Shown here: one piece after another, positions 1-40,535 of the stretch
Position numbering within the stretch: the stretch's first letter is position 1
How the letters are laid out: every line of letters starts with the position of its first letter
Source of the DNA: a virus
DNA: 40,535 nt
IMG/VR virus record: IMGVR_UViG_3300048126_000147
Location: 1-40,535 of that record
Direction: 5' to 3' (one strand)
Notes under the pieces: generated by a model
What the model was told of the DNA's origin: nothing
The model's input: only the letters and a program-made list of their open reading frames with translations
The model's database searches: none
Program-made: the position numbers and the translations under genes

Positions 1-127
1 ACCCGCCTCTCTTCAAACGAATTATTGCTTCTAAAAGTGTTGAGCAGGAAGCAATGGAGATATACGCGCACGAAAAAAAGATCAAGCAACAGGAAGCAGA
101 ACTCAGAGAACTGCTGATGTACACCTA
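1..127. repeat. 127-base exact direct repeat, copy 1 (window edge)
   Basis: Bases 1-127 are identical to 32295-32421. The first mismatch is base 128 (t) against 32422 (c); beyond it the copies remain similar for roughly 110 bases and then part. A repeat of exactly 127 bases that begins at the contig edge is what an assembler using 127-mers leaves at a graph junction. Confidence 0.95.
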
Positions 128-326
128 TGGCCCAGACGGCTATAAAGAACTGGTGGCACTCAGACGCAAGATCAAAGACCAGAGAGAGAAGACTGTTTAT
201 CTACAGGCTAGGAAGCGCAAGGCATTCTTCTGGAATAGCATTCAGATCGCAGGAATAGCTGTACTTGGATATGCTGTTTATTTTTTATTTGCACTAATAT
301 TAGGAGCCATAAATGGCAACGGTTAA
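1..326 (+). CDS. Coiled-coil membrane protein of the lysis cassette (5' partial)
   Basis: The frame is open from base 3 to the stop at 324-326 and runs off the left edge; the ATG at 54 is internal. The homologue at 32135-32614 shows that the first 53 residues are missing. What is visible is a charged, probably coiled-coil stretch rich in Glu, Lys and Gln, followed by a basic patch (KRKAFFWN) and one C-terminal hydrophobic segment, so it is predicted to be tail-anchored in the inner membrane. It lies directly before small membrane proteins and the endolysin, suggesting a lysis-related role, but I do not recognise the family. If base 32294 is joined to base 1 the gene becomes an intact 161-residue frame. 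Confidence 0.75.
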   Translation, partial: PPLFKRIIASKSVEQEAMEIYAHEKKIKQQEAELRELLMYTYGPDGYKELVALRRKIKDQREKTVYLQARKRKAFFWNSIQIAGIAVLGYAVYFLFALILGAINGNG

Positions 327-498
327 GGAAGCTCTGATTCGCTTGGAAGGGCACGAAAAAGAATGCGCGATCAGATACCAGAACATTGAGAAGCGATTAG
401 ACGAAGGCTCCCAGCGATTCAAGAAAAGCGAAATGATGCTGTGGGGTATGTACCCCCTGATAATCGGTTTATTCTTAATTGAGAAAGGCATACTGTAA
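313..498 (+). CDS. Small membrane protein, XhlA-like topology
   Basis: The 61-residue product has a charged helical N-terminal two thirds (LEGHEKECAIRYQNIEKRLDE) and a single C-terminal hydrophobic segment (about residues 43-57). This topology resembles small phage lysis helpers of the XhlA type, but no family is certain. It starts 14 bases inside the preceding frame and its stop overlaps the ATG of the next gene (TAATG), so the lysis genes look translationally coupled. A role in membrane depolarisation or holin assistance is inferred from position only. Confidence 0.7.
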   Translation: MATVKEALIRLEGHEKECAIRYQNIEKRLDEGSQRFKKSEMMLWGMYPLIIGLFLIEKGIL

Positions 499-869
499 TG
501 CTCAAACTATTACTTGGCCCCATTGCAGAATTAGCAGGCGGGTTCCTAAAGAACAAGGCTGATCAGGCTAAAGCGAAGCACGAAGCCAAGATGAACGTGA
601 TTCAGAATGATGCTGACTGGGAAGCTAAGATGGCTGATGCTTCTGCTAATAGCTGGAAGGACGAGTTCTGGACTATTGTGTTAGCGGTGCCAATCTTTAT
701 GGTTGGGTATGCGATAGTAGTTGGTGACATGACTGTAGTCGATAGAGTCAAAGAAGCATTTGCGGCCCTGAATGATCTGCCAGAGTGGTATCAATATCTA
801 TTGTTTGTGGCCATATCAGCCAGCTTCGGAATCAAAGGCGCAAGCAAGTTAATGGGTATGCGTAAATGA
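498..869 (+). CDS. Holin-like membrane protein
   Basis: The 123-residue product has a Lys/Ala-rich amphipathic N-terminus, a charged middle ending in the WKDEFW segment, one hydrophobic helix at about residues 58-76 (IVLAVPIFMVGYAIVV), an LPEWYQ turn, and a second hydrophobic stretch at about residues 98-115. This arrangement is common in phage holin candidates encoded beside M15 endolysins. It is predicted to form the inner-membrane lesion that lets the downstream endolysin reach peptidoglycan. The start overlaps the previous stop and the gene end overlaps the endolysin start by four bases. Assignment rests on topology and context, not on a decisive motif. Confidence 0.7.
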   Translation: MLKLLLGPIAELAGGFLKNKADQAKAKHEAKMNVIQNDADWEAKMADASANSWKDEFWTIVLAVPIFMVGYAIVVGDMTVVDRVKEAFAALNDLPEWYQYLLFVAISASFGIKGASKLMGMRK

Positions 870-1207
870 GATACTTTAAGATAGAAGACTTCAACTGCCA
901 AGAGACTGGCAACAACGAGATGGATGACAGATTCCTGTGGGCGCTTGACGCTTTACGCCATGAGTGTGGATTCCCTTTTATTATTACCAGTGGATATCGT
1001 GATCCAAGCCACAGTATTGAGGCAAGAAAATCCAAGCCTGGAACCCATGCTCGCGGTATTGCCGCAGACATAAAGATTAATAATGGAAACGAAGCATACC
1101 TTATAATCAAGCATGCTCAGGCAATGGGCTTTAATGGGATAGGGGTGGCTAAGACTTTTATCCATGTAGACATCAGAGACACGATGCCTGTTATCTGGTC
1201 TTATTAA
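866..1207 (+). CDS. Endolysin, peptidase M15 family
   Basis: The 113-residue protein matches the compact Peptidase_M15_3 type. It shows SGYRDPSHSIE, then GTHARGIAADIK, then FIHVDIR. The expected zinc ligands are H61, D68 and H100. These enzymes cleave peptide cross-links in peptidoglycan (D-Ala-D-Ala carboxypeptidase or L-Ala-D-Glu endopeptidase type), which fits the end of a lysis operon. There is no signal peptide, so export would need the upstream holin. Its last codons and stop lie inside a 31-base repeat that recurs after the neighbouring methyltransferase gene. Confidence 0.9.
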   Translation: MRYFKIEDFNCQETGNNEMDDRFLWALDALRHECGFPFIITSGYRDPSHSIEARKSKPGTHARGIAADIKINNGNEAYLIIKHAQAMGFNGIGVAKTFIHVDIRDTMPVIWSY

Positions 1208-1215
1208 TAACCTTT
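1185..1215. repeat. 31-base direct repeat, left copy
   Basis: Bases 1185-1215 are identical to 1715-1745 (530 bases apart), with mismatches at both next outer positions. This copy contains the last six codons and stop of the endolysin and the self-complementary core TTATTAATAA. The two copies bracket the Dam-type methyltransferase gene. Confidence 0.95.
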
Positions 1216-1245
1216 CAATAGGGTGTTACTGTTTTAGACGGAATC

Positions 1246-1677
1246 TCACCTACCATCGAACACCACGATCATGGAGTCGTGCATTCCATTCTGGCCTGAG
1301 ACCTTCTGTCCTAGAGCGTTATGGCCTATGAAACGCACCCGTCTCTCTATAAACCTAATCTCAGTAGCGTTTGGCTGTATAACCCTATGGAATAGCTGGG
1401 TACTGGTGCTTACAGGTAGTAGGAAAACAGATAAGAAGCCCTCTTCCATATGGGCTACGCCTCTAGCTACGAAGGCCTCTTTAAGTTTTCGGCTGTACGG
1501 TGGGTTCACAAACGACCGAGAACCCCACGGCTGTATCAAGCCATCCTTATCAGGAGTTATGTCCCCATAGTAAATAGGGCAGGGGTCGTGGTTGAAGTTA
1601 AATTCATCGTTAAGTGGGTCGTATATGTAGCTAGGGGTTTCCCAGTTGTCGCTGTGTTTAATTGCTCGGTTTTTCAT
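1246..1677 (-). CDS. DNA N-6-adenine methyltransferase (phage Dam type)
   Basis: The 143-residue product has the layout of the short phage Dam-like family: WETPSYIYDPLNDEF at the N-terminus, a DPCP segment that replaces the usual D-A-A, DGLIQPW, the catalytic FVNPPYS motif, and a C-terminal half ending in DSMIVVF. It would methylate adenine in phage DNA from S-adenosylmethionine, probably to resist restriction. It has a weak ribosome site, and its ATG follows directly after a TAA. It sits convergent to the endolysin on a 530-base unit bounded by 31-base direct repeats, so it looks like an acquired accessory gene rather than part of the early operon. Confidence 0.88.
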   Translation of the reverse strand: MKNRAIKHSDNWETPSYIYDPLNDEFNFNHDPCPIYYGDITPDKDGLIQPWGSRSFVNPPYSRKLKEAFVARGVAHMEEGFLSVFLLPVSTSTQLFHRVIQPNATEIRFIERRVRFIGHNALGQKVSGQNGMHDSMIVVFDGR

Positions 1678-1714
1678 TTAGGACTCTATTTTTAACTGGC
1701 TTCTTCTTAGGTGC

Positions 1715-1745
1715 TGCCTGTTATCTGGTCTTATTAATAACCTTT
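1715..1745. repeat. 31-base direct repeat, right copy
   Basis: This is the exact copy of 1185-1215. On the minus strand it supplies the last codons (Lys-Gly-Tyr) and stop of the 49-residue basic protein at 1734-1883. Before the insertion, the endolysin and this basic gene would have been convergent and overlapped at TTATTAATAA. Confidence 0.95.
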
Positions 1746-1883
1746 TAGAAGACTCTTTTTCTTTGAGTTCTTAAAAGCCTTATTGGTTGGAGCGCCCTTA
1801 CTTCCAGGCTTCCTCATCTTCTCGCCAGAACCTGCTGCGATACGTTTGCGTTTAGCATGTATGTTTGCGTATAAACCTTTCAT
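1734..1883 (-). CDS. Small basic conserved phage protein (49 aa)
   Basis: The frame reads MKGLYANIHAKRKRIAAGSG followed by EKMRKPGSKGAPTNKAFKNS and a lysine-rich tail. The KRKRIAAGSGEKMRKPGSKGAP core is a short string I recognise from many phage genomes, where it remains without known function. Its start overlaps the stop of the upstream gene (TAATG). The very high Lys/Arg content suggests nucleic-acid binding. Its stop lies within the right copy of the 31-base repeat. Confidence 0.8.
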   Translation of the reverse strand: MKGLYANIHAKRKRIAAGSGEKMRKPGSKGAPTNKAFKNSKKKSLLKGY

Positions 1884-2143
1884 TACCATTTAACCCTGTT
1901 AGCCCAGTATGCCGCAGACGATTTTCCTTTGGCGATATTCTTTCTATGTCTAGCTTTGAATGCTTCATTGCGCTTTGACCCGTCAGGGGAGCCTGTCTTA
2001 CCCTGCTGCCCAAACCTAATAGTCTTTGGCTTGCCATCCACCTTAGTCACTACAACGTGTGACTTTGTTTTGTGGCCTGGAGTTCTCTTAGGTTTATCGT
2101 ACCCAGAGACACCGATTCTTTTAAGTAAGCTGTCTTTTTTCAT
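1883..2143 (-). CDS. Small basic conserved phage protein (86 aa, DUF6321-like)
   Basis: I chose the ATG at 2143 (MKKDSLLKRIGVSGYDKPKR) rather than the longer frame from 2185, because the longer start lies in the terminator tail. The protein has the conserved pattern GYDKPKRTPGHKTKSHVVV, IRFGQQG, KRNEAFKARHRKNIAKGK and SAAYWANRVKW. This is a widespread phage and bacterial family of unknown function (I believe DUF6321). It is strongly basic and probably binds nucleic acid. It is coupled to the next small basic gene and lies below a minus-strand terminator, so it may have its own promoter or rely on readthrough. Confidence 0.85.
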   Translation of the reverse strand: MKKDSLLKRIGVSGYDKPKRTPGHKTKSHVVVTKVDGKPKTIRFGQQGKTGSPDGSKRNEAFKARHRKNIAKGKSSAAYWANRVKW

Positions 2144-2157
2144 AGCTTGATTATACC

Positions 2158-2193
2158 AAAAAAAAGCCCTAATCGCTCGGAACAATTAGGGCC
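2158..2193 (-). terminator. Rho-independent terminator (minus strand)
   Basis: GCCCTAAT (2167-2174) pairs perfectly with ATTAGGGC (2186-2193) around an 11-base loop. Read on the minus strand it is followed by a run of about nine U. It ends the early leftward operon after the 79-residue gene and separates it from the small basic genes. Confidence 0.9.
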
Positions 2194-2272
2194 GCAGGGG
2201 AAACAAAAGCAAAAACAGAACTCAACGATATTAATAAATTACCACCGAAGTGATATACGTTTTGTTCACTAA

Positions 2273-2512
2273 CTATTCTACATCAAACGAAGGGTTAAGC
2301 AAGCTTAATTGTTCTTCATCTGGCGGCACAGAAAGCAACTCTATCTCAGCATCAATCTCAAGCCATATATCATCGAGCTGTTCCCTTGCATGGTCAGGTC
2401 TGGCATCGTGGTATAGAACAGACTCTAGTATGTTCCTCAGCTTGGACTCTATATCTTTTAAGTTGTGCTGCTCACACTTATCAAACAACTCTGCTATAAA
2501 TCCAGTAGACAT
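2273..2512 (-). CDS. Hypothetical acidic early protein (79 aa)
   Basis: This is a Glu/Asp-rich, mostly helical small protein (FIAELFDKCEQHNLKDIESK) with no motif I recognise. A clear AAAGGAG ribosome site lies seven bases before the ATG. It is the last gene of the leftward early operon, 11 bases after the HNH nuclease gene and just before the terminator at 2158-2193. The spacing and good ribosome site argue that it is real. Function is unknown. Confidence 0.75.
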   Translation of the reverse strand: MSTGFIAELFDKCEQHNLKDIESKLRNILESVLYHDARPDHAREQLDDIWLEIDAEIELLSVPPDEEQLSLLNPSFDVE

Positions 2513-2523
2513 AATAGTCTCCT

Positions 2524-2913
2524 TTAATTGTATGAGATTGGCTCATAGTTTCTATCTTTATCCATCTTCTTAAATTCTTCTCGGTAGTGCCTGGCTATCT
2601 CTGTCCTAAGCTTTTTGTTCGTGGGCATCAGCACGTTCCACTTCTCTCTCAGCAAGTCCATGTGTCCCTGTCCATACTTGGCTACACAGAACGCAGTGAA
2701 CTCAAATGGGTTAGCAGTAAACTTCATGTGGCAGTAGTGGCATAGGCACATAGCATTATCCATAGACCATCTGACAGACTTGGCTGCTCGACCATAGATG
2801 TGAGCGCACTCCATCCTAGATCCTTCCTTCTTGCAATGCTCGCAAATAAAGCCAGCCTTCTTTCTGACTACATCACTAAACCATTTGTCTGCCGCATCTC
2901 TCTTAATTGCCAA
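2524..2913 (-). CDS. HNH-type nuclease, NinG/Rap-like context
   Basis: The start chosen is a TTG at 2913, because GAGGAG lies seven bases upstream and the product then begins (M)AIKRDAADKW; the longer ATG at 2961 would overlap ninB by 59 bases. The protein has a zinc-knuckle-like pair CEHC, then ECAHIYGRAAKSVRW, DNAMCLCHYCHMKFTANP and a downstream helical part. The layout is that of a metal-bound HNH nuclease. Directly after NinB, the counterpart in lambdoid phages is NinG (Rap), a resolvase of recombination intermediates. That exact identity is inferred from order and Cys/His pattern. Confidence 0.75.
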   Translation of the reverse strand: MAIKRDAADKWFSDVVRKKAGFICEHCKKEGSRMECAHIYGRAAKSVRWSMDNAMCLCHYCHMKFTANPFEFTAFCVAKYGQGHMDLLREKWNVLMPTNKKLRTEIARHYREEFKKMDKDRNYEPISYN

Positions 2914-3334
2914 GCTCAAACTCCTCTTTAGCGAACACAAAGTGCATTTGCTTTTTTGCAAAGTGATTGATTATAGCATTTGCTACTGGCGCTACTTCAT
3001 GGGTGCTGAGTTCACTGCTGCTTTGAGTCTTGTTTGGATACAGTGCGCCTTGTACTGGGAGCCAGATCTTATCCATCACACTATCCTTAGTCCAGGGTAC
3101 GATGATTGGTTTATTTAAAGCAGGGCTGGTCACTTCCATCTCCATTCCGCACTCGTTAAACCTATCTGCAATAGAGGTAACAAAACCCCAGAGCGCACCG
3201 TTTTGCTTTATGGTTCTAGGCTTGCCCAGTTTATAGTTGAAGGTGACGTACTTCTTTTCATGAAATAGGTCGGTAGCAAACTTAATATAATTATCCAGTG
3301 TAGACTGGCTGTTAACTGTATAACCTTCTGGCAT
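2903..3334 (-). CDS. ninB: NinB recombination protein
   Basis: The 143-residue size and pattern match lambda NinB (Orf): an N-terminal domain with RTIKQNGALWGFVTSIAD, then KDSVMDKIWLPVQGALYPNK and the signature SSSELSTHEVAPVANAI. NinB binds single-stranded DNA and SSB and can act in place of host RecFOR during phage recombination. It is encoded away from the annealing protein, exonuclease and SSB genes but in the same early region. It has a GAGGGTG ribosome site, and its ATG overlaps the upstream stop (TAATG). Confidence 0.9.
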   Translation of the reverse strand: MPEGYTVNSQSTLDNYIKFATDLFHEKKYVTFNYKLGKPRTIKQNGALWGFVTSIADRFNECGMEMEVTSPALNKPIIVPWTKDSVMDKIWLPVQGALYPNKTQSSSELSTHEVAPVANAIINHFAKKQMHFVFAKEEFELGN

Positions 3335-3726
3335 TATAGTTTCACCCTCAAGAATTTATCCATAAGACGCTGTTGTTTATCTTCAAGCCTCGGCTGGTTA
3401 AGAACCTGTTCTCGCCTCTCTTTAGTGTATCCCTTCTTTGAATACTTACCACCAAGAGTAGTCAGGTCGATGAGTCCAACCGGACGCAGATGTTCAGGCG
3501 TACAGTGGCTGCACCCGTACAATCTATTCTTAATTGTAGCAGGCATAACATCGGGCTTGATGTCCTCTGGGCTGACCTTTAGTTCAGCGGCAATCTTTTC
3601 TATATATTCTCGATTGTAGTTGCTCGCGCCTGTCGAGAATTGACGGTAGGTGTACTGCTCCCCATTTTCAAAGTATGGGTGATCACCTTTAAATTCTTTA
3701 AGCGTTGGTTTAAATTTACTAGCCAT
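3334..3726 (-). CDS. Hypothetical early protein (130 aa)
   Basis: The product begins MASKFKPTLKEFKGDHPYFE and contains a Cys-His pair (YGCSHCTPEH at about residues 70-79) that could bind a metal, followed by a basic C-terminus. I do not recognise the family. An AAGGAG ribosome site six bases before the ATG and coupling to ninB support it. Its position between the initiator and ninB suggests an early DNA-metabolism or regulatory role, without direct evidence. Confidence 0.75.
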   Translation of the reverse strand: MASKFKPTLKEFKGDHPYFENGEQYTYRQFSTGASNYNREYIEKIAAELKVSPEDIKPDVMPATIKNRLYGCSHCTPEHLRPVGLIDLTTLGGKYSKKGYTKERREQVLNQPRLEDKQQRLMDKFLRVKL

Positions 3727-3736
3727 TGTTTTCTCC

Positions 3737-4438
3737 TTATACCCAAGATGTATCTGTCAGCTTGTCCTGAATAGACTGTGACTTGATAGACTCTTGGTTT
3801 AATTTTCTTTGTGTGCGTTTAGTTTCAACCTCATCTTCCCATCTTGCACCGTTGAGATAGGTAGACGCATGGGGTACGAACTGGGTGTCCTCCCATTCGC
3901 CAGCATCTAGCCTGGCCTTGAGGTTAATTGCAATCAGTTGGACTATCTCGTCGCTTGGTTTGAGTTTATTCCATGCTTTTCTTGCCGCCTGCTTGCCAGC
4001 TTTCTTAGGGTAAGCCCTCCAGAAACTATCAAAATGATCAATACTATTAACTGTAATATTAGTTGTATTATTAACTGTATTATTATCCTTAAAGTTTTCT
4101 TGTATAGGGTCATCAAGTTTTCTTGTAGGGGTATTCAAATTATCTTGTATACCCTCATCAAATATTCTTATATACCTATGCAATATATGTTTAGTACCTT
4201 CCTTGTATTGCATACTTACCGTTATGTAACCAGCATCCTTAAGGTTGCCTATCCAGGCGCTTACCGTTGCCTTAGTCACATCGTATAGATCACTGAAGTA
4301 AGCATTGCTTGCCCAGCAATAACCCTTCTCATTGCACAGGGCTGTTATCTCCCCGTATAGCAACTTAGCATTTGGTGTTAGACGCGCATCATATCTAACA
4401 CTAGCAGGGATAATGGCGTAGTACCCCTTCTTATCCAT
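3737..4438 (-). CDS. Replication initiator, lambda O / phage replication type
   Basis: The 233-residue protein has a winged-helix N-terminus (about residues 1-95), beginning with YYAIIPASVRYDARLTPNAK and containing the recognition-type segment DLYDVTKATVSAWIGNLKDAGYI in the HTH_36 style. A low-complexity Asn/Thr linker (about 115-135) follows, then a C-terminal domain with DSFWRAYPKKAGKQAARKAW and FVPHASTYLNGARWEDE. The last motif is the hallmark of phage replication proteins that recruit the helicase. No helicase or primase gene is visible, so host replication enzymes are presumably used. Lambda O carries origin repeats inside its own gene; the AT-rich linker DNA near 4030-4180 is a possible origin site. 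Confidence 0.85.
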   Translation of the reverse strand: MDKKGYYAIIPASVRYDARLTPNAKLLYGEITALCNEKGYCWASNAYFSDLYDVTKATVSAWIGNLKDAGYITVSMQYKEGTKHILHRYIRIFDEGIQDNLNTPTRKLDDPIQENFKDNNTVNNTTNITVNSIDHFDSFWRAYPKKAGKQAARKAWNKLKPSDEIVQLIAINLKARLDAGEWEDTQFVPHASTYLNGARWEDEVETKRTQRKLNQESIKSQSIQDKLTDTSWV

Positions 4439-4638
4439 TACTCACCTGCCGCTATAAATTCCGATACCTTAACCCCGAAGCAATCTGATATAGCAATCAG
4501 AGTAGACATGCTCGGTAGTCGCTTGTCAGTCATTATCAAACTGATAGTAGCAGGGTTGAGGTGGGCTTCTCTTGATAGGTCTTGCTGGCTCATACCGTGT
4601 TGCTGCATGAAGAAGCGCATCGCTTTGATTACATCCAT
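4438..4638 (-). CDS. Cro/CI-type repressor (66 aa)
   Basis: This is a single HTH_3 domain protein: KAMRFFMQQHGMSQQDLSREAHLNPATISLIMTDKRLPSMSTLIAI. The turn MSQQDLSREAHLNPATISLI is a textbook Cro/C1 helix-turn-helix. It is the first gene of the leftward operon with a strong AAGGAG site. A 27-base palindrome covers its promoter, so autoregulation is likely. With no integrase or second repressor in view, it is more likely an early-gene switch of a lytic phage than a lysogeny repressor. Confidence 0.9.
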   Translation of the reverse strand: MDVIKAMRFFMQQHGMSQQDLSREAHLNPATISLIMTDKRLPSMSTLIAISDCFGVKVSEFIAAGE

Positions 4639-4662
4639 AAAATTCTCCTTAAGTGAGGTTGA

Positions 4663-4691
4663 ATAATATACTTGTGTAAATTAATTTGCAA
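4663..4691 (-). promoter_or_regulatory. Leftward early promoter
   Basis: Read on the minus strand, the -35 box is TTGCAA (4686-4691), the spacer 17 bases, and the -10 box TATTAT (4663-4668). This drives the cro-like operon starting at 4638. The palindrome at 4670-4696 overlaps the spacer and -35 box. Confidence 0.75.
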
Positions 4692-4696
4692 CAAGT
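4670..4696. promoter_or_regulatory. Operator-like 27-base palindrome
   Basis: The ends ACTTGT (4670-4675) and ACAAGT (4691-4696) are exact reverse complements. The centre contains the perfect palindrome AAATTAATTT (4678-4687). Only four of the 27 positions break the symmetry. It lies across the leftward promoter and ends three bases before the rightward -35 box, so a dimeric regulator bound here could control both directions. The 66-residue Cro-like protein is the obvious candidate ligand. Confidence 0.75.
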
Positions 4697-4698
4697 GT

Positions 4699-4726
4699 TT
4701 GACAATAAATAAACGATGTGTAAAAT
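4699..4726 (+). promoter_or_regulatory. Rightward early promoter
   Basis: It has a perfect TTGACA -35 box (4699-4704), a 16-base spacer and TAAAAT as -10 (4721-4726). Transcription would begin near 4733, ahead of the ATG at 4759, and serve the early operon 4759-6901. Confidence 0.85.
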
Positions 4727-4758
4727 AGTCAGCACACAAACACAACTAGGGTAGTATT

Positions 4759-5127
4759 ATGAGTGACAATCTGAATTACTTTATCAAATCAATTAAAGAC
4801 GTTCTGCCGCAAATGCAGGATGATAACCCCAAGTTTTCTGGCGACCTTCTTGAGCTAGATGACGAATCAAAAGATACCCTGTGTCACGCATGGCTTAAAT
4901 GTATGCCAAGCTGGCAAGATGATTTCCTTCCCCCAGCATGCACCGACCAGGCTAAGTTCCTAGATCACCTATACCTACATTCTAAGGTAGAAACCCTGAG
5001 CATTAATATGCGCGATGATATCTACATGGGGTTAGAAAATAAACTGCGCGAGTTGGTATGGGAGGTTTATTGTGAGATTAATTTACTTAAGCCTGAAGAG
5101 TTTGCAGGTTATGAGAGGGGTCAGTAA
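4759..5127 (+). CDS. Hypothetical early protein (122 aa)
   Basis: This is the first gene of the rightward early operon. The product is acidic and helical with several Trp, Cys and Leu-rich segments (KDVLPQMQDDNPKFSG; ELVWEVYCEINLLKPEEF). I see no known motif. Its stop overlaps the next start (TAATG). Being transcribed first from a strong promoter, it could be a host-takeover or regulatory protein, but this is only positional inference. Confidence 0.75.
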   Translation: MSDNLNYFIKSIKDVLPQMQDDNPKFSGDLLELDDESKDTLCHAWLKCMPSWQDDFLPPACTDQAKFLDHLYLHSKVETLSINMRDDIYMGLENKLRELVWEVYCEINLLKPEEFAGYERGQ

Positions 5128-5282
5128 TGGATAATGTTAACGACTTAAATGATTTTGACCGTGGAGAGCTTGATTGCCTGTACGGTTATGATTCACTTGA
5201 AGGGCAGTCAGAGTCTTACTATGAAGGCTATGGCAAGCAGTATGCAATTGAGCAAATACAAACAGCGAGGACAGAGCAATGA
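5127..5282 (+). CDS. Small acidic Tyr/Gly-rich protein (51 aa)
   Basis: The frame MDNVNDLNDFDRGELDCLYG, continuing with YDSLEGQSESYYEGYGKQYA, starts on the previous stop codon (TAATG) and ends four bases into the annealing-protein gene (ATGA). The tight coupling on both sides supports translation. Repeated Y-x-x-GY elements are seen in other tiny phage proteins of unknown role. Confidence 0.65.
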   Translation: MDNVNDLNDFDRGELDCLYGYDSLEGQSESYYEGYGKQYAIEQIQTARTEQ

Positions 5283-6724: not shown

Positions 6725-6733
6725 GAGGTTTAT

Positions 6734-6901
6734 ATGAGCGATTTAAAGAAAGCTATTGAAGAAGCCCATGATGAGGCTGATGCAGTGATCAGTAAATCAA
6801 AAAGCCGAGTAACAAAGTGGCTGACTACCGAGGCTATACGGTTAAGTCGTGGCCAGGTTATCATGGTAGGATTGATATTTATTTTTCTTGCTATCATTTA
6901 G
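6734..6901 (+). CDS. Small tail-anchored membrane protein (55 aa)
   Basis: The frame opens MSDLKKAIEEAHDEADAVIS after an AAGAGGT ribosome site, has a charged helical N-terminus and ends with one hydrophobic helix (VIMVGLIFIFLAII). It follows the SSB gene by nine bases and closes the rightward early operon. Function is unknown; the topology suggests an inner-membrane protein facing the cytoplasm. Confidence 0.7.
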   Translation: MSDLKKAIEEAHDEADAVISKSKSRVTKWLTTEAIRLSRGQVIMVGLIFIFLAII

Positions 6902-7145: not shown

Positions 7146-7157
7146 ATGGAGTAAAAT

Positions 7158-31453: not shown

Positions 31454-31903
31454 ATGTTAGTAAAAATAGTAAATGACGCTGTAGATACTTTTCCGTACAG
31501 CACAAGACAATTAAAGCAAGACAACCCAGGCACATCTTTCCCTGATGCAATAGCGGATTTAGACCTGTCTGACTACGGTGTTTATAGTGTAACTGTAAGC
31601 CCTAAGCCCTCTGCTGCTCACGATGAAAAAGCAGTAAGCAATGATGCGCCTACATTGATAGATGGTGTGTGGACTTTAGGCTGGACAGTTAGAAGCTTGA
31701 CCGCAGACGAAATAGAGTCAGAAGCTAAGGTAGTAAGGCTTGATCGTGATGAGTTGCTTTCAGAATGCGACTGGACACAGATGCCTGACAGTCCGTTAGA
31801 CGACAGCACAAAGGCTTCTTGGGCTACATACCGCACAGCATTGCGAGACATCTCAACACAAACAGATTTCCCAACTAACGTAACCTGGCCTACAGCGCCT
31901 TAA
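31454..31903 (+). CDS. Tail fibre assembly chaperone-like protein (APC family)
   Basis: The C-terminal half carries the clear signature of the Phage_tail_APC family: LLSECDWTQMPDSPLDDSTK and WATYRTALRDISTQTDFPTN, ending VTWPTAP. The family follows fibre genes and is thought to assist fibre folding or cap the fibre. The N-terminal half (DYGVYSVTVSPKPS) is variable and would adapt it to its fibre or propeller partner. Confidence 0.88.
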   Translation: MLVKIVNDAVDTFPYSTRQLKQDNPGTSFPDAIADLDLSDYGVYSVTVSPKPSAAHDEKAVSNDAPTLIDGVWTLGWTVRSLTADEIESEAKVVRLDRDELLSECDWTQMPDSPLDDSTKASWATYRTALRDISTQTDFPTNVTWPTAP

Positions 31904-31914
31904 AGGAAAATAAA

Positions 31915-32118
31915 ATGAAATACTTATTAGCACTAGCAACACTAGCCCTTATGGGATGTAACACATTTAATGGCGCAGTAGATGGATCGCAAGAGATTCT
32001 GGCCAGCACTGTAGACTCAGCACAGACTATGGTTACCGATACCGCTAAGGGTATAGGCAAAGGCTCTGCAACTGCTGTCGAAGGAATTGCTAAAGACATT
32101 CGTGCAGCATCTGAGTGA
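31915..32118 (+). CDS. Small lipoprotein (67 aa), possible outer-membrane lysis protein
   Basis: A signal peptide KYLLALATLALMGC with a lipobox (LMGC, modified Cys at 15) is followed by a Thr/Ala/Gly-rich helical segment. It resembles entericidin-like or outer-membrane spanin subunits in size. It lies between the fibre chaperone and the lysis cassette, so an outer-membrane disruption role is plausible, but no matching inner-membrane spanin with an N-terminal membrane helix is evident. Confidence 0.75.
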   Translation: MKYLLALATLALMGCNTFNGAVDGSQEILASTVDSAQTMVTDTAKGIGKGSATAVEGIAKDIRAASE

Positions 32119-32134
32119 ATAGAAGGGCTTCTGA

Positions 32135-32614
32135 ATGATCGACCCGATAACAGCGATTAGTATAGCGACCAATGCTTTTGGCACTATACAGCGCATGGTT
32201 AAGGCTGGGAAGGGAGTAGAAGATACTCTCTCTCAGTTGGGTCGGTGGTACGGAGCCGTTGCTGATCTCAATGAGCATAAGCGCAGGGCAGAAAACCCGC
32301 CTCTCTTCAAACGAATTATTGCTTCTAAAAGTGTTGAGCAGGAAGCAATGGAGATATACGCGCACGAAAAAAAGATCAAGCAACAGGAAGCAGAACTCAG
32401 AGAACTGCTGATGTACACCTACGGCCCAGAGGGCTATAAAGAACTGGTGGCACTCAGACGCAAGATTAAAGAACAAAGGGAACGTACTGTGTATTTACAG
32501 GCTAGGAAGCGCAAGGCATTCTTTTGGAATAGCGTTCAGGTAGTAGCTATTGTATGTTTAATAGCAGCTACTTATAGTATATATAACATAATTGTAGGTC
32601 TTACTCATGGATAG
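32135..32614 (+). CDS. Coiled-coil membrane protein of the lysis cassette (second, complete copy)
   Basis: The 159-residue protein starts MIDPITAISIATNAFGTIQR, continues through ENPPLFKRIIASKSVEQEAM and a charged helical region, and ends with one membrane helix. It is the full-length homologue of the partial gene at 1-326. Residues up to about 96 come from DNA identical to the window start; the remaining part differs by several substitutions and has an unrelated membrane helix. This gene is where the two halves of the window meet. Confidence 0.8.
   Translation: MIDPITAISIATNAFGTIQRMVKAGKGVEDTLSQLGRWYGAVADLNEHKRRAENPPLFKRIIASKSVEQEAMEIYAHEKKIKQQEAELRELLMYTYGPEGYKELVALRRKIKEQRERTVYLQARKRKAFFWNSVQVVAIVCLIAATYSIYNIIVGLTHG
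32295..32421. repeat. 127-base exact direct repeat, copy 2 (internal)
   Basis: This is identical to bases 1-127. It is embedded in the coiled-coil lysis gene. From 32294 the path could continue equally to base 1 onward or to 32422 onward. Confidence 0.95.
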
Positions 32615-32780
32615 TGCAACTAAGGATACAATAGATATAATGGCGGCTTCAACTACTTTAATGGCATTAGTTGCATGGCTACCTCCAACAGCTTCTTTAT
32701 TTACTATTATATGGTTAGGTATTAGGATATATGAATCACCCACTGTTCAAAGAATACTGGGAAAACCTCTTGACAAATAG
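32607..32780 (+). CDS. Small holin, T7 class II type (57 aa)
   Basis: The frame MDSATKDTIDIMAASTTLMA continues through WLPPTASLFTIIWLGIRIYE to a short polar tail. This closely follows the layout of T7-family small holins of aquatic podoviruses: short polar N-terminus, two membrane segments with a Pro turn between them, and an IRIYE end. It overlaps the preceding gene by eight bases. It has no counterpart near the first lysis cassette, where a 61-residue protein of different topology takes the place. Confidence 0.8.
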   Translation: MDSATKDTIDIMAASTTLMALVAWLPPTASLFTIIWLGIRIYESPTVQRILGKPLDK

Positions 32781-32798
32781 ACAAAAATAGTGTATAAT
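32770..32798 (+). promoter_or_regulatory. Full-consensus sigma70 promoter
   Basis: TTGACA (32770-32775), 17 bases, TATAAT (32793-32798): all twelve bases and the spacing are ideal. The -35 box overlaps the end of the small holin gene and the -10 box touches the ATG of the 3-TM holin at 32799, so transcripts would start inside that gene and serve the genes from 33203 on. Confidence 0.85.
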
Positions 32799-33203
32799 AT
32801 GAGTATATTGACATCTTTAATAGAACCAGTAACAGGTCTTTTAGATAAATTTATAGAGGATAAAGACAAGAAAAATGCCATCGCTTATGAATTGGCTACG
32901 ATGGCTGAACGTCACGCTCAAGAACTTGCTAAGGGTCAGCTTGAAGTTAACAAGGTTGAAGCTGCTCATAAGAATATGTTTGTCGCAGGTTGGAGGCCAG
33001 CTGTTGGCTGGGTATGTGTGGCTGGTATGGCAGGGAACTTTATTATTATACCGTTGGCTAATTTTGCGTTGGCTTTATCCAGTTCTACAATTGTCATTCC
33101 CCTTGTAGCTTTGTCAGAAATGATGCCAGTATTGATGGGCATGTTAGGACTAGGCGCTATGCGAACTGTTGAAAAAACTAAAGGCGTACAGAGAGATAAA
33201 TAA
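32799..33203 (+). CDS. Holin, 3-TM type
   Basis: I chose ATG 32799 over the upstream GTG in the same frame. The 134-residue product has a charged helical N-terminus (KFIEDKDKKNAIAYELATMA), then FVAGWRPAVGWVCVAGMAGN, the hallmark of three-membrane-segment holins, followed by further hydrophobic helices and a basic tail. It would act with, or as an alternative to, the small holin at 32607-32780. The stop overlaps the next ATG (TAATG). No endolysin follows it, unlike in the first cassette. Confidence 0.82.
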   Translation: MSILTSLIEPVTGLLDKFIEDKDKKNAIAYELATMAERHAQELAKGQLEVNKVEAAHKNMFVAGWRPAVGWVCVAGMAGNFIIIPLANFALALSSSTIVIPLVALSEMMPVLMGMLGLGAMRTVEKTKGVQRDK

Positions 33204-35167
33204 TGGGTGCAGCTAATCGTTCTTTAAATACAAGTATAAACAACAATATACAATCCCGGCGTTTAGCTGAGGGCCCTCTTTCTTTAATTCAAGAAAGTAC
33301 AATAGAGTCTAGCCCTTTTACTGCTCAAGCTTCAGACCCTTTCCTTAGTGAACAATCTAAACAACCTGATCAATTTCAGCAGTCTGTCGCACCTACACAA
33401 TCTACAGAACCTAAAGAACAAGAACTAGCAGCTGGTTTAGTATCTAGTGGTACATTAGGACAAGAAACTAGCTTATATATACAAGGTACAGGAGAGCGTT
33501 CTAATGAGCGTTACTTCTCAAGTACAGTTAAAGAACAAGATTATGGAGAGGCTGCACAGTGGGAAAACCCTGACTTAGCCTTTACTAATTATTTAGATAC
33601 GTTTAATCAAACACAAGCCCAACGAGAACAGACAGATTCCGTTTATAATTATAATAACTATGATCCGGGTGATTTTGCTAGAATGGGTTTCGCTGGCCCT
33701 ACTGATGTTGGAGATAAAGCACAAGGTACAAAACTTGCTGAGTATGTTATAAATAATGAAATACCTTTAACACAAGAACGTGACGGTGTTGTTTATTACT
33801 TTACTCCCGGTAATATGAATGCCAATAATCAAATACATGGTAACGCAGGTCAAGGCGAAGAGTGGGTAGTACTAGGTCAGCCGGGTACTTATAGTACTAT
33901 TAAACAACCTAGAGAAAGTGCTTTTAATAACCCTCTTGTAAATATACTAAGTGCGTTTGTTCCAGCAGTTGGTTTAGTTAATACAGCTATGAGAGCAGCA
34001 ACGGGAGAGACTTTACATGCAGCGGATTATGCTAGTGCTATAACTAGCGGTTTACAAATTTCAGGCAATTTAGTAGCACCTGTTGATGCCGCTGAAGCCG
34101 CTAACACTGCTGCTCAAGCTACACAAAACGCCTTAGCTTCAGGCTTGTCAGAGACAGCAGCAGCAGCAGCAGGTCAGGCTGCAGAAGCGGCGGCTCTTGC
34201 GGGCCGAGGTTTAGGCTCTTTAAGTTACGCACAATCTGTTGGTCTTCTTAATGCTGCGGGTACTAAAGATTTAGCATCAGCAGCTACAGCTTTGTTTGGT
34301 CAAGATATTTTAAATGCAGGTCTTGCAACAATAGGTACAAGTACTGAAGCCATTGCTAGTCAATTAAATATTAATGCTAACGATGTACAATCTGGTTTAA
34401 TTAAATCTATTGAAGTAGCTGCTTCTGGTGGAGACATTGAAGATGCTTTGAGAGACGGCTTTGTAGAATATATAAAAGAAGGTGGAAGCCTTAATGTTCT
34501 TGAACCTTTGCGTGATTTTGTTGAAGAACATGCAGGAGGTCTTCTTAATGTTGTAAGAACAATCGGTAGTTCTCTTGACGATAATATTCTACAACCTGTA
34601 AAAGAGTTAATACCTGAAGAAGTTCGAGAGTTAGGTTCTGCTACAGAAGATGTAATTAGAGAAGTAGGTAGTACTATTGATGATGAAGTCTTGCAACCTA
34701 TCAACGATGTAGCAAGCGCTATTGATGAAGCTGTTAGAGAAGCACTTCCTGATATAGACGGGCCAGACTTAGGTGGTGTAGAAGATGTAATTAGAGAAGT
34801 AGGTAGTGCTACAGAAGATGTAATTAGAGAAACAGGTAGTACTGTTGATGATGAAGTTTTGCAACCTATCAAAGAAGTAGCAGAGGCTATTGATGAAGCT
34901 GTTAGAGAAGTACTTCCTGATATAGGTGATCCAGACTTAAGTGGTTTAGAAGATCTAATTAAATCAAATGTGTTAGGAGAACAGGGTGGGATGTTAGCCA
35001 GTGCTGGTAGTATGTTACTTTCACGTCCTTCGCCTACTAGAACTACAGATTCGCTCTTTGATACAAGCCCTTTTAAATTTAAAACAGCAATTACCCCCTA
35101 CGAAGAATTAGATTTATTCGAGAGAACTACAAATGATTTCACACTACCTCCTAGTACAATAGGATAA
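33203..35167 (+). CDS. Large hypothetical virion-associated protein (654 aa) with repeats
   Basis: The first 200 residues are polar and Gln/Ser-rich. Around 190-230 a beta region occurs (DGVVYYFTPGNMNANNQIHG). Residues about 250-400 are Ala-rich helices (DAAEAANTAAQATQNALASG). Residues about 480-585 are two near-identical 45-residue acidic units with IDDEVLQPINDVASAIDEAV. I recognise no family. It opens the second structural module with A/T-ending codons throughout and may be an internal or tail-associated structural protein. Confidence 0.7.
   Translation: MGAANRSLNTSINNNIQSRRLAEGPLSLIQESTIESSPFTAQASDPFLSEQSKQPDQFQQSVAPTQSTEPKEQELAAGLVSSGTLGQETSLYIQGTGERSNERYFSSTVKEQDYGEAAQWENPDLAFTNYLDTFNQTQAQREQTDSVYNYNNYDPGDFARMGFAGPTDVGDKAQGTKLAEYVINNEIPLTQERDGVVYYFTPGNMNANNQIHGNAGQGEEWVVLGQPGTYSTIKQPRESAFNNPLVNILSAFVPAVGLVNTAMRAATGETLHAADYASAITSGLQISGNLVAPVDAAEAANTAAQATQNALASGLSETAAAAAGQAAEAAALAGRGLGSLSYAQSVGLLNAAGTKDLASAATALFGQDILNAGLATIGTSTEAIASQLNINANDVQSGLIKSIEVAASGGDIEDALRDGFVEYIKEGGSLNVLEPLRDFVEEHAGGLLNVVRTIGSSLDDNILQPVKELIPEEVRELGSATEDVIREVGSTIDDEVLQPINDVASAIDEAVREALPDIDGPDLGGVEDVIREVGSATEDVIRETGSTVDDEVLQPIKEVAEAIDEAVREVLPDIGDPDLSGLEDLIKSNVLGEQGGMLASAGSMLLSRPSPTRTTDSLFDTSPFKFKTAITPYEELDLFERTTNDFTLPPSTIG
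34646..34948 (+). repeat. In-frame tandem repeat in the 654-residue protein
   Basis: A unit of about 135 bases at 34646-34780 recurs at 34814-34948, 168 bases (56 codons) apart. Between them is a 33-base partial copy of the unit's start (34781-34813). All copies stay in frame. Confidence 0.85.
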
Positions 35168-35178
35168 TAGGAATACCC

Positions 35179-35826
35179 ATGACTTACTTACAACTTGTTA
35201 ATTCTGTTTTACGCAGACTGAGAGAAGACGAAGTTACAAACGTCTCTGATAATTCTTATTCAAAACTTATTGGCGAGTTTGTTAATGATGCTAAAGTTCA
35301 AGTAGAAGATGCTTGGAACTGGTCTGCTTTACGAAACACTTTAACAGTCAGTACAACTGACAATATTTTCCACTACAACTTAACAGATTCTAAAAATAAT
35401 ATAACTATCTTAGATGTTGTTAACGATACGTCTAATTATTTTTTAAACTACAAGACAGCCCATTGGTTTAACAATGCCTTTTTAAATACAGAAGTACCTA
35501 AAGGTTCTCCGAAGTATTATTCTTTTAACGGAGTAGATGACAACGGCGACACAGGTATAGACTTATACCCTAAACCTAACGGGTTGTACGAAATACGATT
35601 TAATGTGATACAAAGAACACAGCCGTTTACAGAGAATAACGATAAGTTAACTGTACCTTCGCCAGCAGTTGTTCAACTTGCTACCGCTATGGCTGCAAGA
35701 GAACGTGGAGAAACGGGCGGTGTTAGTTCCGCAGAGTTGTTTGCTATAGCAGACAATACACTAGCTGACGCTGTCGCTTATGACGCAGCTAAACATCCTG
35801 AAGATACTATTTGGACTACTTGCTAA
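35179..35826 (+). CDS. Second adaptor-like tail protein
   Basis: The 215-residue protein starts MTYLQLVNSVLRRLREDEVT, then SYSKLIGEFVNDAKVQVEDA and WNWSALRNTLTV, a layout typical of adaptor/tail tubular A-type proteins of other aquatic phages. It differs strongly from the 185-residue adaptor at 17780. It is followed directly by a nozzle-like gene, the same order as in the first module. One virion would not be expected to need both. Confidence 0.75.
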   Translation: MTYLQLVNSVLRRLREDEVTNVSDNSYSKLIGEFVNDAKVQVEDAWNWSALRNTLTVSTTDNIFHYNLTDSKNNITILDVVNDTSNYFLNYKTAHWFNNAFLNTEVPKGSPKYYSFNGVDDNGDTGIDLYPKPNGLYEIRFNVIQRTQPFTENNDKLTVPSPAVVQLATAMAARERGETGGVSSAELFAIADNTLADAVAYDAAKHPEDTIWTTC

Positions 35827-37379
35827 TGGCTCAGCCTTTACAAAATATTACAGTAGCAGCACCGGGTTTCTTGGGTTTAAACACTCAAGATTCTCCTATA
35901 GGTCTTAACCCGTCATTCGCTTCTATTGCCAACAACTGTGTTATTGATCAGTATGGTCGTATTGGCGCTCGAAAAGGTTATGTTAATATTTCTACAAATG
36001 GAGCATCTGTTTTAGGCAGCAGTGAAATAGAAGCTATTCACGAGTTTGTAGATAGAGACGGAAGTATTACTGTTTTTTCTGCTGGCAATAATAAAATATT
36101 TACAGGCACTACATTGCTTTCAGAAGTAACTCTTCCTGCTGGTTATACTATTACAGCAAACAACTGGAAAATAATTACTTTTAATAACAATGCTTTATTT
36201 TTCCAGCGTGGACATCAGCCTTTAAAGTCTAACGCAGGCAGCACCACTCTTGAAGTGTTGACTGATAGTTCTCACACCGGCCCTTCAGCTAACGAAGTAC
36301 TAGGCGCTTTTGGTAGACTCTGGGCCGCAGACATTACTGATAATAAATATACAATTTACTACAGTAAAACACTTGATGTAGATAACTGGCACTCAGGAGG
36401 TGCAGGTTCTTTAGACCTGACATCAGTATGGCCTACAGGCTTTGACGAGATTGTCGGCTTAGCTGCTTATAATAGTTTTCTAGTTATCTTTGGTAAGCGT
36501 TCTATCCTTGTATATGAAGGCGCTTCTATGATCAATGTCGCTGGCCCTGTGTTTAAACTACACGATACTGTAGAGGGTGTAGGCTGCATCTCTAGGGACT
36601 CTATCCAACAAACAGGTAATGATATTATCTTTTTGTCAGAAACAGGAATACGTAGCTTTGGCAGGACTATTCAAGAAAAGTCAATGCCCTTGCGAGACAT
36701 TAGTAAAAATGTTCGTAATGATTTAACTGGTTATGTTTCCTCTGAACTAGCGTCTTCTACAGGTAGTATTGATTCTGTATATAGTGCAGATGAAGCCTTT
36801 TATCTTTTAGCTTTAAAAGAAACAGGGATTACATATTGTGTAGATATGCGTGGCCCCTTAGATGAATCAGGTGCTCACCGTATAACTACTTGGTCAGCCA
36901 ATACTCCTACTGCTTTAACACAACTAGCTGATGGGTCTGTGTACATGGGTAAGAATCAAGAGATTGTTAATTACTCTGGGTACTTAGATAATGGTAATGT
37001 TTATAGTTTAGATTATTTCAGTAACCCGCTGGATTTTCAAAGCCCTGCTAATTTAAAGTTTTTAAAAACCTTTAATGTAACAATTATTGGTAGCACGACT
37101 ACACCAGTAACTTTAAACTGGGGTTATGATTATACTACTTCTTTTAAAAAACAAGCTTTAGTAGGTAGTGCAGATCAAGAGGCATCCCCTGCGGAGTTTA
37201 CTGTAAGTGAGTATAATACGGATGCTGAATATTCGTCAGGAATTAGTATAACAACTCCTAAGTTAAATACTACAGGTAGTGGTTCTGTAGTTACAATAGG
37301 CATTGAAGCAGATATTACCTCTGAGCCTTTTTCAATTCAAAAAATCGACATACATGCTCTACTAGGGAGATTAATATAA
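35826..37379 (+). CDS. Second nozzle-like tail protein
   Basis: I take ATG 35826, which overlaps the adaptor stop (TAATG), instead of the upstream in-frame start. The 517-residue product begins MAQPLQNITVAAPGFLGLNT, contains PSFASIANNCVIDQYGRIGA and beta-propeller-like strands (FGKRSILVYEGASMINVAGP; GNDIIFLSETGIRSF). Such proteins follow the adaptor in many aquatic podoviruses and form the tail nozzle. It is unrelated at the sequence level to the 858-residue nozzle of the first module, apart from the general plan. Confidence 0.75.
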   Translation: MAQPLQNITVAAPGFLGLNTQDSPIGLNPSFASIANNCVIDQYGRIGARKGYVNISTNGASVLGSSEIEAIHEFVDRDGSITVFSAGNNKIFTGTTLLSEVTLPAGYTITANNWKIITFNNNALFFQRGHQPLKSNAGSTTLEVLTDSSHTGPSANEVLGAFGRLWAADITDNKYTIYYSKTLDVDNWHSGGAGSLDLTSVWPTGFDEIVGLAAYNSFLVIFGKRSILVYEGASMINVAGPVFKLHDTVEGVGCISRDSIQQTGNDIIFLSETGIRSFGRTIQEKSMPLRDISKNVRNDLTGYVSSELASSTGSIDSVYSADEAFYLLALKETGITYCVDMRGPLDESGAHRITTWSANTPTALTQLADGSVYMGKNQEIVNYSGYLDNGNVYSLDYFSNPLDFQSPANLKFLKTFNVTIIGSTTTPVTLNWGYDYTTSFKKQALVGSADQEASPAEFTVSEYNTDAEYSSGISITTPKLNTTGSGSVVTIGIEADITSEPFSIQKIDIHALLGRLI

Positions 37380-38444
37380 ATGTCTAATTATGTAAAAACT
37401 ACAGACTTCTTAGCAAAAGATTCTTTAGCCCCGGGATCAGCGGCTAAGAAAGTAAAAGGTGCAGACTTTGATGTAGAGTTTAATAACCTTGCTACTCACT
37501 CTGCTACTAAAACTGAACTTACTTCCTTCTCTGCTACAGTCGCAGCAGCAGGCACAACAAGTCTAACTTATAACAACACTAACGGTGTGTTCACTTACAC
37601 CCCGCCTGATCTATCAACGTATTTGACTGCGGTTGTAGCTGGGACTGCCCTGTCAGGTAGTGCTACTAGCGGCTCTGCAACTCTTAATGTAACCGATAAT
37701 GGCATTGGCGCGACACAGCTTAATGTATCAGGTGACGGAACGTCTGGTCAGCTATTAGCATCTGATGGCGATGGGTCATTCTCTTGGGTTGCACAGTCTG
37801 CCGTTGGTGGAGGAATATCCTTAACTGATCTTTCTGCTACAGTTGAATCTGCTGGCACAGCTAACCTAGCTTACAATAACACTAACGGTGTGTTCACTTA
37901 CACCCCTCCTGATCTTTCGTCTTACGTTACAGCATCCGGCACTACCTTTACTGGAGATGTTATCTTCAATGATAATGTTAAAGCTTTGTTTGGCACTTCT
38001 TCTGATTTTGAAATATTCCATAACGGAAGCGATACTGTATTTAAAGACTCAGGCTCAGGTATTTTAAAGTACAGTAGTGTTAATGACACAACAGCAGGTA
38101 CTATTTTTCAAATCGAAAACACAAGTACTGAACAGTTATCTGGCGCTTTTGTTGAATTTAAAGATAACTCAGGGTTTACGCCTGTTAAAATAGGTGGTGT
38201 TGGTGCGGCTTTTTCTATTATTGTGCAAGGTAATGAAGAACTTAGAGTAGATGATGGCGTCGTTATATACAATGACCTAAAAGTAAACAATACAACGTCC
38301 ACAATTAACTCAGGAAGCGGTACACCTGAAGGTACATTGTCAGCAGCTGTCGGCTCATTGTACATGAGAACTGATGGTGGTGCAGGTACTTCTTTATATG
38401 TAAAAGAATCCGGCTCAGGTAATACTGGCTGGGTGGCTAAGTAA
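37380..38444 (+). CDS. Second tail fibre-like protein sharing the fibre module
   Basis: The 354-residue product opens NYVKTTDFLAKDSLAPGSAA and GADFDVEFNNLATHSATKTE, a short N-terminal region used by fibre-like proteins of aquatic phages and unlike the T7-type attachment domain. Residues about 83-353 are the module shared with the first fibre (GTSSDFEIFHNGSDTVFKDS; SLYMRTDGGAGTSLYVKESG). A short strand unit (NNTNGVFTYTPPDL) occurs twice. It ends where the shared module ends, with no chaperone or propeller gene after it. Confidence 0.8.
   Translation: MSNYVKTTDFLAKDSLAPGSAAKKVKGADFDVEFNNLATHSATKTELTSFSATVAAAGTTSLTYNNTNGVFTYTPPDLSTYLTAVVAGTALSGSATSGSATLNVTDNGIGATQLNVSGDGTSGQLLASDGDGSFSWVAQSAVGGGISLTDLSATVESAGTANLAYNNTNGVFTYTPPDLSSYVTASGTTFTGDVIFNDNVKALFGTSSDFEIFHNGSDTVFKDSGSGILKYSSVNDTTAGTIFQIENTSTEQLSGAFVEFKDNSGFTPVKIGGVGAAFSIIVQGNEELRVDDGVVIYNDLKVNNTTSTINSGSGTPEGTLSAAVGSLYMRTDGGAGTSLYVKESGSGNTGWVAK
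37626..38438 (+). repeat. Fibre module repeat, copy 2
   Basis: This corresponds to 28613-29428 in the first fibre gene. The left boundary is near the codons for TAVVAGTALSG and the right boundary coincides with the gene end (NTGWVAK). Confidence 0.9.
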
Positions 38445-38457
38445 CTAGGAGAATATA

Positions 38458-39933
38458 ATGCCAGAACAAAACCCTTATTTGGGTAACGTAAACCCGCAGG
38501 TAGGTATGGTTAATCCTCAACAAGCAACAGCAGAAGGGGTTTCTCCTTTTAACTACTCTATTGGAACCGCTAGCTATTCTGATTATGATCCAGTTACTAA
38601 CACTGTTCAAGGTACTATTGGTGGTATTGCAGGCATGGAGGACTTAGGACGAGTCAGTGTGAGTCAGTTACGAGCACAAAATCCTGAATTTGATAGTTAC
38701 TATAGTCAGTACATACAAGGTGGGACGGCTCAGCCACAGGGCACTACCGCTACTACTCAGACACAGGGTAACGCAGGTAACTGGTACGACACAGCGATGG
38801 GTCAAGCACAATCTAATCAACCCTCAGATTCTAATCTTCCTTATTGGATGGCGGGTTTAGGAGGTTTGCTGTCAGGAAACTTTGGAGATGCGCTAGGTGC
38901 TGCAGGTAGTTACTATACAGGTCAACAAGGTATTCAAAACGCTTACAACATGGGTAGACAAAGTCTACAAATGCTTGGACAGTTGGGACAACAAGCACAA
39001 ACAGCTTCTGAGTTTAGACCTTTTACTGTTACAGGTAGCATGGCTAATGTAGCAACCGACCCAACTGGCGGGTTTAGCATTAATTTATCCCCTGAAGAGC
39101 AGGCGATTCAAAATACTTTGCTAGAAAGAGCAAGTGGTTTCTTTGATCAAGCAAGACAAGATCCGGCTATTGCTCAGTCAGAAATATATGAGTCAATTAG
39201 AGCAACACAGCTACCTGAAGAAGAACGGCAAAGACAAGCTGTACAAGACTTAGCTTTATCTCAAGGACGTAGAGGATTACAGTCTTCTACTTTTGGCGGT
39301 ACGTCCTCTGAGTTGCTTGCTCAAGAACAAGCCCGACAAGAAGCAATGGCTCGTGCGAGTCTGTCAGCTAGAGAAACAGCTTTAGGTGAACAGCAGCGAG
39401 CCTTAGAAGCTGGAGGACTGTTGTTAGGACAAGCCTACGCTCCTCAGCAAAGAGCCTTGGAGTTGTTAAGCGGTGCTGACGTTACTGGACAAACAGCATC
39501 TAGAGGACAGATGCAAGGTGCGACACTGTTAGCGCAACTAGGTCAGTCAGGTATTGAGGGTTTGCTGGAAGGAAGTAGGCAGGCTAATGCATTAGAGCAG
39601 ATTCAACAGCAGGGTTTGTTAGGCGCTCTTACAGGGTCACAACCTAGTATACAAGAAATGCTTATTGCACAGCAGTTAGGAATAGACCCCAGCACACTAG
39701 GATCTTCTGGTATGCTAGGTGCTTTAGGTATGGGTGAAGGAAGTACTCCTTCTTGGATTAAAGCTATTGAAGATACTTTCGGATCTCTTTGGGGAGCAAA
39801 CACAGGAGTTTCTATGTTTGGAACACCTTCAGCTTCTAGTCAAGAATCTTTAAATGAAGTGAATAAAGATAGCGATGGAGATGGCACAGTAGATATTTTG
39901 GATAACTTCCCCAACGATCCTAATAAAACATAA
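38458..39933 (+). CDS. Gln-rich internal virion-like protein with a C-terminal Ca-binding motif
   Basis: The 491-residue protein has a polar N-terminus, a short hydrophobic Gly-rich stretch (WMAGLGGLLSGNFGDALGAA at about 128-147), and long Gln/Ala/Arg coiled coils (RGLQSSTFGGTSSELLAQEQ), as in gp14-type ejection proteins. The last 21 residues include DSDGDGTVDILDNFPNDPN, a thrombospondin type 3-like calcium motif that is unusual for this role. An AGGAG site precedes the ATG. Its place in the order matches the gp14-like gene at 21317. Confidence 0.72.
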   Translation: MPEQNPYLGNVNPQVGMVNPQQATAEGVSPFNYSIGTASYSDYDPVTNTVQGTIGGIAGMEDLGRVSVSQLRAQNPEFDSYYSQYIQGGTAQPQGTTATTQTQGNAGNWYDTAMGQAQSNQPSDSNLPYWMAGLGGLLSGNFGDALGAAGSYYTGQQGIQNAYNMGRQSLQMLGQLGQQAQTASEFRPFTVTGSMANVATDPTGGFSINLSPEEQAIQNTLLERASGFFDQARQDPAIAQSEIYESIRATQLPEEERQRQAVQDLALSQGRRGLQSSTFGGTSSELLAQEQARQEAMARASLSARETALGEQQRALEAGGLLLGQAYAPQQRALELLSGADVTGQTASRGQMQGATLLAQLGQSGIEGLLEGSRQANALEQIQQQGLLGALTGSQPSIQEMLIAQQLGIDPSTLGSSGMLGALGMGEGSTPSWIKAIEDTFGSLWGANTGVSMFGTPSASSQESLNEVNKDSDGDGTVDILDNFPNDPNKT

Positions 39934-39944
39934 GGTATTGAATA

Positions 39945-40535
39945 ATGGCTAGAACAGATATAGCAGGTTTACTAACGGGCATCCCCAGTAGAGGCATTGA
40001 CCCTAACATGTCACCACAGGCGCAGCAAATAGCACTGGCACAACAAGCCGCGAAAGGGCTACAGAGTGGTGCCCGTGGTTTAATGGCTAGTGTATCGGGT
40101 AAGCCTGATGCCACTGCAATGGAAAGAGCAACGAATAGAGCCTCAATAGAGGAAAGACTACAGGCAGGGATGAGTCAACTTGATCTTACTAAAGTTGAAG
40201 ACTTGCTTAAACTCGCAAAAATTCAACAGGCTCGTGGTGATCTTGCAGGTGCAGCACAGACAACTGCTCGTATACAACAGATAAAACAATTAGAAGTTGA
40301 AGAAATACGCGCGACAGCCAGAGAAAAAAGAGAAATCAGTGCCGAGCAAAGGGCAGAAGAGGCTTACGAGTTCGGCAAGATAGACAGACTAGAAAGGAAA
40401 GACAGAAAAAAAATAGAAGACAAAATATCGGATGAAAACGCGAGACTCCGTCAAGCGGTTACTAAAAAGGAGTTAAATAGGGCTGACAAACAAAAAGCGG
40501 CTAATGCAACACTACGTTTGTTCTACACTAATGAG
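39945..40535 (+). CDS. Internal virion-like helical protein (3' partial)
   Basis: 197 codons are visible before the window ends with no stop. It starts MARTDIAGLLTGIPSRGIDP, then SPQAQQIALAQQAAKGLQSG, a beginning I associate with internal virion proteins of aquatic podoviruses, followed by charged helices rich in Gln, Arg and Glu (REISAEQRAEEAYEFGKIDR). It lies after the gp14-like gene, so it would correspond to the gp15-type gene of the second module. Confidence 0.75.
   Translation, partial: MARTDIAGLLTGIPSRGIDPNMSPQAQQIALAQQAAKGLQSGARGLMASVSGKPDATAMERATNRASIEERLQAGMSQLDLTKVEDLLKLAKIQQARGDLAGAAQTTARIQQIKQLEVEEIRATAREKREISAEQRAEEAYEFGKIDRLERKDRKKIEDKISDENARLRQAVTKKELNRADKQKAANATLRLFYTNE

Follow-up and report, generated by a model that had tools for sequence, protein, structure and literature searches.

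Repeats of k-mer length are known at the ends of contigs assembled from circular templates (CheckV, PMC8116208). Methylophilales phage MEP301 (MW452941; 34,774 bp), an OM43-clade phage, gave one circular contig on assembly (PMC8024684). The window analysed here is the entire IMG/VR virus record IMGVR_UViG_3300048126_000147, 40,535 bases in length, which carries an exact repeat that starts at its first base and recurs far inside the contig. With a probability of roughly 0.95, the record is an assembly chimera, in which the complete circle of one phage (phage A) has been joined at a shared stretch to a fragment of another (phage B). Such a chimera is an ordinary assembly artefact.

The exact identity of bases 1-127 and 32295-32421, reported in an initial annotation of this DNA, is borne out. 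Both copies diverge at the very next base (T at 128, C at 32422), this 127-mer is the only one repeated within the 40,535-base window (n = 1), and the first 127 bases are located at two positions only, 1 and 32295. The repeat is thus exact, of an odd, k-mer-like length and anchored at base 1 of the contig, and an identity of this length is far too long to have arisen by chance. Weaker similarity continues past the match, fading over a further ~120 bases to about 245/32539, because the 127-base match sits within one homologous gene. The length of the repeat is most likely the k-mer of the assembler, and the suggestion of a typical 127-mer assembly junction is supported, with the value of k deduced from the repeat length.

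Under the proposed mechanism, assembly would have used a de Bruijn graph, with k apparently going up to 127, and would have run into a stretch of the same sequence in A and B, two phages that occurred together. The last shared 127-mer would form a vertex with two exits, T towards A and C towards B. From this vertex the contig would set out along A's exit, make one lap of 32,294 bases, re-enter the shared stretch and then take B's exit for 8,114 bases, a choice of path that we infer. The left end of the repeat would accordingly have been set by the assembler, while its right end, at the first difference between A and B, would alone be biological. In sample 3300038485, the phage A contig (L017/L195, starting at window 62) and the phage B contig (L008, starting at 32339) both break within the shared stretch, which is what a branch in the assembly graph should produce.

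Closure of the phage A circle was followed in contigs retrieved from IMG/VR with two queries, the 37-base core of the repeat and the downstream endolysin. Three contigs from three other samples, L014 (3300039055_000058), L016 (3300039056_000007) and L005 (3300038496_000116), extend left from window base 1 into 32294 and pass through the implied junction without a gap, together reaching from 29.7-32.3 kb into 1-8 kb. L014 follows the window from 30624 to 32294 and on from 1 to 5696, mismatching at 2 of 7,367 bases, L016 runs from 29717 to 32294 and from 1 to 1720, and L005 from 31913 to 32294 and from 1 to 7987, its fibre region farther left differing from that of the window. The start of L016 also holds an exact 95-base repeat (L016 1-95 and 217-311), which lies in the fibre gene at window 29840-29934 and may again be an artefact of an assembly edge. 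The rest of the circle is covered, counted at an identity of at least 99.7%, by L195 (window 62-14596, 3 mismatches) and by L278 from another sample. The latter matches the window at 99.8% across 14498-32106, with no difference at all between 28892 and 32106. Together, these five contigs from four samples leave zero bases of the 32,294-base circle uncovered. Phage A is a marine podovirus with a complete, circular-mapping genome, a statement about the sequence map and not about the DNA ends in the virion.

The exactness of the repeat could also be taken to mean that a phage genome exceeding 40 kb truly carries these 127 bases twice, as a direct repeat at its ends or in its interior. However, the left end of the match falls right at the edge of the contig, base 1 is preceded by 32294 in all three junction contigs, and the relatives of phage A measure 30-34 kb and have a closed gene order. 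The probability of such a repeat is close to negligible.

Table 1. Features of the window, with phage A and phage B genes listed separately by position
Feature	Position	Strand	Remarks
First 127-mer copy	1..127	+	Contig start at branch point; real phage A sequence, 5' cut probably set by the assembler
Second 127-mer copy	32295..32421	+	Phage A lap complete; path would exit here into phage B
Shared gene block	about 31899..32540	+	67-aa lipoprotein-like gene and most of the membrane-anchored gene; spans junction
Phage A genome	1..32294	+	32,294 bases, circular-mapping; contig tiling; MEP301-like podovirus gene order
Membrane-anchored gene, 161 aa	32135..32294 (5' part) and 3..326 (3' part)	+	C-terminal hydrophobic segment
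Holin-like gene, phage A	498..869	+	One strong hydrophobic segment; PHROG 2524 (unknown function)
M15-type endolysin, phage A	866..1207	+	PHROG 894 endolysin; Pfam PF08291 Peptidase_M15_3
Replication initiation protein, phage A	3737..4438	-	PHROG 270
Recombination pair, phage A	5279..6413	+	Sak-like annealing protein 5279-5830 (PHROG 659); exonuclease 5817-6413 (PHROG 149)
Terminase large subunit, phage A	11680..13140	+	Homology to MEP301; 89-93% identity to G001, G004, G009 and G010
Portal (head-tail connecting protein), phage A	13811..15382	+	PHROG 332; Pfam PF12236
Major capsid protein, phage A	16895..17728	+	PHROG 3437; Pfam PF19821
Tail tubular proteins A and B, phage A	17780..20942	+	PHROGs 394 and 376; same positions in MEP301
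Tail fibre, phage A	27845..30385	+	PHROG 1640; segment 28613-29428 in common with phage B
Phage B fragment	32422..40535	+	8,114 bases, wrongly joined; incomplete at both ends; different head/packaging lineage
Holin, phage B	32790..33203	+	PHROG 3427; Pfam PF11351
Tail/virion structural genes, phage B (215 and 522 aa)	35179..37379	+	PHROGs 10775, 5107 and 3287
Tail fibre, phage B	37380..38444	+	37626-38438 is 93% identical to phage A 28613-29428

The gene content of phage A agrees with the circle. A single full set of phage functions had been assigned to 1-32294, and genes for replication, recombination, terminase, portal, capsid, tail and lysis-type functions are indeed identified there (Table 1). 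The terminase, which has no PHROG or Pfam match of its own, aligns at 36% identity over 487 aa with the gene that carries the annotation ‘terminase large subunit’ in MEP301. Joining 32294 to 1 had also been said to restore a 161-codon lysis gene in frame. The frame holds, as the 161-aa product is identical to the L014 protein encoded at L014 1528-2013; the assignment to lysis is by position only, and the sole family match of the gene (queried as the window's 159-aa frame) is PHROG 32327, of unknown function. Immediately upstream, 31915-32118 encodes a protein of 67 aa with a signal resembling that of lipoproteins, MKYLLALATLALMGC; this protein may belong to the lysis cassette.

Four relatives of phage A, G001 (3300021959_000189), G004 (3300036716_000145), G009 (3300028600_000015) and G010 (3300047378_000206), are contigs 30-34 kb long whose cut points differ. 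They resemble phage A in portal (77-78% identity), terminase (89-93%) and circular gene order, while differing from it in their fibres, their holin type and the places at which they are cut. Within the reach of each record, the order runs from fibre to holin, M15 endolysin, replication, recombination, terminase, portal, capsid and tail. The holin and M15 endolysin thereby lie between the fibre region and replication in all four, an arrangement that fits the closed circle and not the linear record. None of the four contains the tail genes that phage B carries after ~33.2 kb, their sole B-type gene being the exchangeable holin. The initial proposal of a closed 32.3-kb genome is therefore supported by contigs reading through the junction, by complete tiling and by the gene order of relatives.

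Just left of the junction, the junction contigs differ from the window at two linked sites only: G at 32002 and C at 32064 in the window are replaced by A and T in L014, L016 and L005. Both allele pairs are present in sample 3300038496. These differences raised the suspicion that the window is already in phage B upstream of 32002, which was rejected as needless since L278 carries the window alleles. As L278 is a phage A contig from another sample, ending at 32106, the G/C pair represents variation among A strains. Among the IMG/VR contigs found, none carries the G/C alleles across the junction into base 1.

The sequence after 32421 had been attributed to a different, related phage, and the first part of this claim stands. 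L008, a separate contig from sample 3300038485, is identical to window 32339-37829 (5,491/5,491 bases), and the post-repeat segment thus exists as a contig apart from phage A. A further contig, L095 (3300047363_000021), is 94-97% identical to the phage B part, has its own, different left flank and extends past the window end. Together with G011 (3300027253_000006), G012 (3300020469_000120) and L012 (3300021375_000237), L095 shares with phage B the same run of 215-, 522- and 491-aa tail genes; G014 also belongs to this lineage. In G011, G012, G014 and L012, the terminase, portal and capsid of phage A find no match at E<=1e-5. G011 has its own head and packaging genes, whose best PHROG matches are to families other than those of A (terminase PHROG 2, portal PHROG 1216, major capsid protein PHROG 267), and also carries a DNA polymerase, a primase/helicase and a ribonucleotide reductase. 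The IMG/VR query with the first divergent bases of phage B also matched the A-type contigs L004 and L013, so that phage B cannot be recognised from the allele right after 32421 alone; its identity rests on genes farther downstream.

A living recombinant, in which a phage A strain continues after the 127 bases into the structural genes of B on a molecule of more than 40 kb with two tail modules, is what the window sequence itself would depict. The G/C alleles at 32002 and 32064 also leave some room for such a strain, as they are known only from the window and from L278, which ends at 32106. Yet the 161/159-aa gene, the holin and the fibre would each have to be present twice in this genome, the two fibres having a segment in common, and its two tail modules would be unrelated to each other. 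Moreover, the B relative G011 has a terminase, portal and capsid of its own, L095, at 97% identity to B, bears a different left flank, and the join of A on the left to B on the right is absent among the IMG/VR contigs with the 37-base repeat core. Because the holin, fibre and membrane gene would be duplicated and B has a separate head lineage, a real hybrid is very improbable.

Accepting closure, the 8.1-kb tail of the record could itself be a composite of more than one phage. Its last part, 37830-40535, is covered by no other contig at >=97%, and the shared fibre module (37626-38438) offers a possible path crossing. L095, however, retains the order b215-b522-fibre-b491-b197 up to the window end at 94-97% identity, and a composite tail is unlikely.

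The relatedness of phages A and B, the second part of the earlier claim, holds only in a mosaic sense: it is confined to exchanged modules, a block of genes in the lysis region and a tail-fibre segment, while head and packaging genes differ. Module exchange between phages is well known. The lysis-region block, which spans the junction, occurs in both A-type and B-type contigs at ~93-99%. The common fibre segment, with 93% DNA identity and 90% protein identity over 273 aa, suggests a recent exchange, judging from the sequences; it is also a second site where assembly paths could cross. Holin types are crossed between the lineages: beside their M15 endolysin the four relatives of A have the type of B, and that of A is found in the B-type contig L012, which indicates that holins were swapped. 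That fibre and lysis-region modules are near-identical in two phages whose head and packaging genes differ may point to a host common to A and B, which is plausible on these comparisons.

Under the chimera reading, the record should be split before use, with 1-32294 taken as a complete genome and 32422-40535 as part of another phage. The completeness of 1-32294 is not recognisable from its ends. Left unsplit, the record would pass for a single phage whose lysis and fibre genes are duplicated, and two different lineages would become linked in gene-sharing networks.

Among described phages, MEP301 has the same order of packaging, head, tail tube, fibre, holin and M15 peptidase genes as phage A. 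Protein identity between the two is low (TerL 36%, portal 35%, MCP 43%, TTA 26%, TTB 28-55%), with the order conserved. Phage A is MEP301-like by this order and by its homologous terminase, portal, capsid and tail tubes, and not by genus-level DNA similarity, as megablast of both window halves against 50,697 phage records returned no match. The repeat of the window resembles the terminal repeats treated by CheckV (PMC8116208) in being odd in length, exact and edge-starting, the residue an assembler leaves on closing a circular or concatemeric genome. Unlike in those contigs, assembly continued past the second copy into another phage, which leaves that copy inside the contig, where end-repeat detection misses it. 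The window provides a concrete case of the type of chimera that escapes end-repeat checks.
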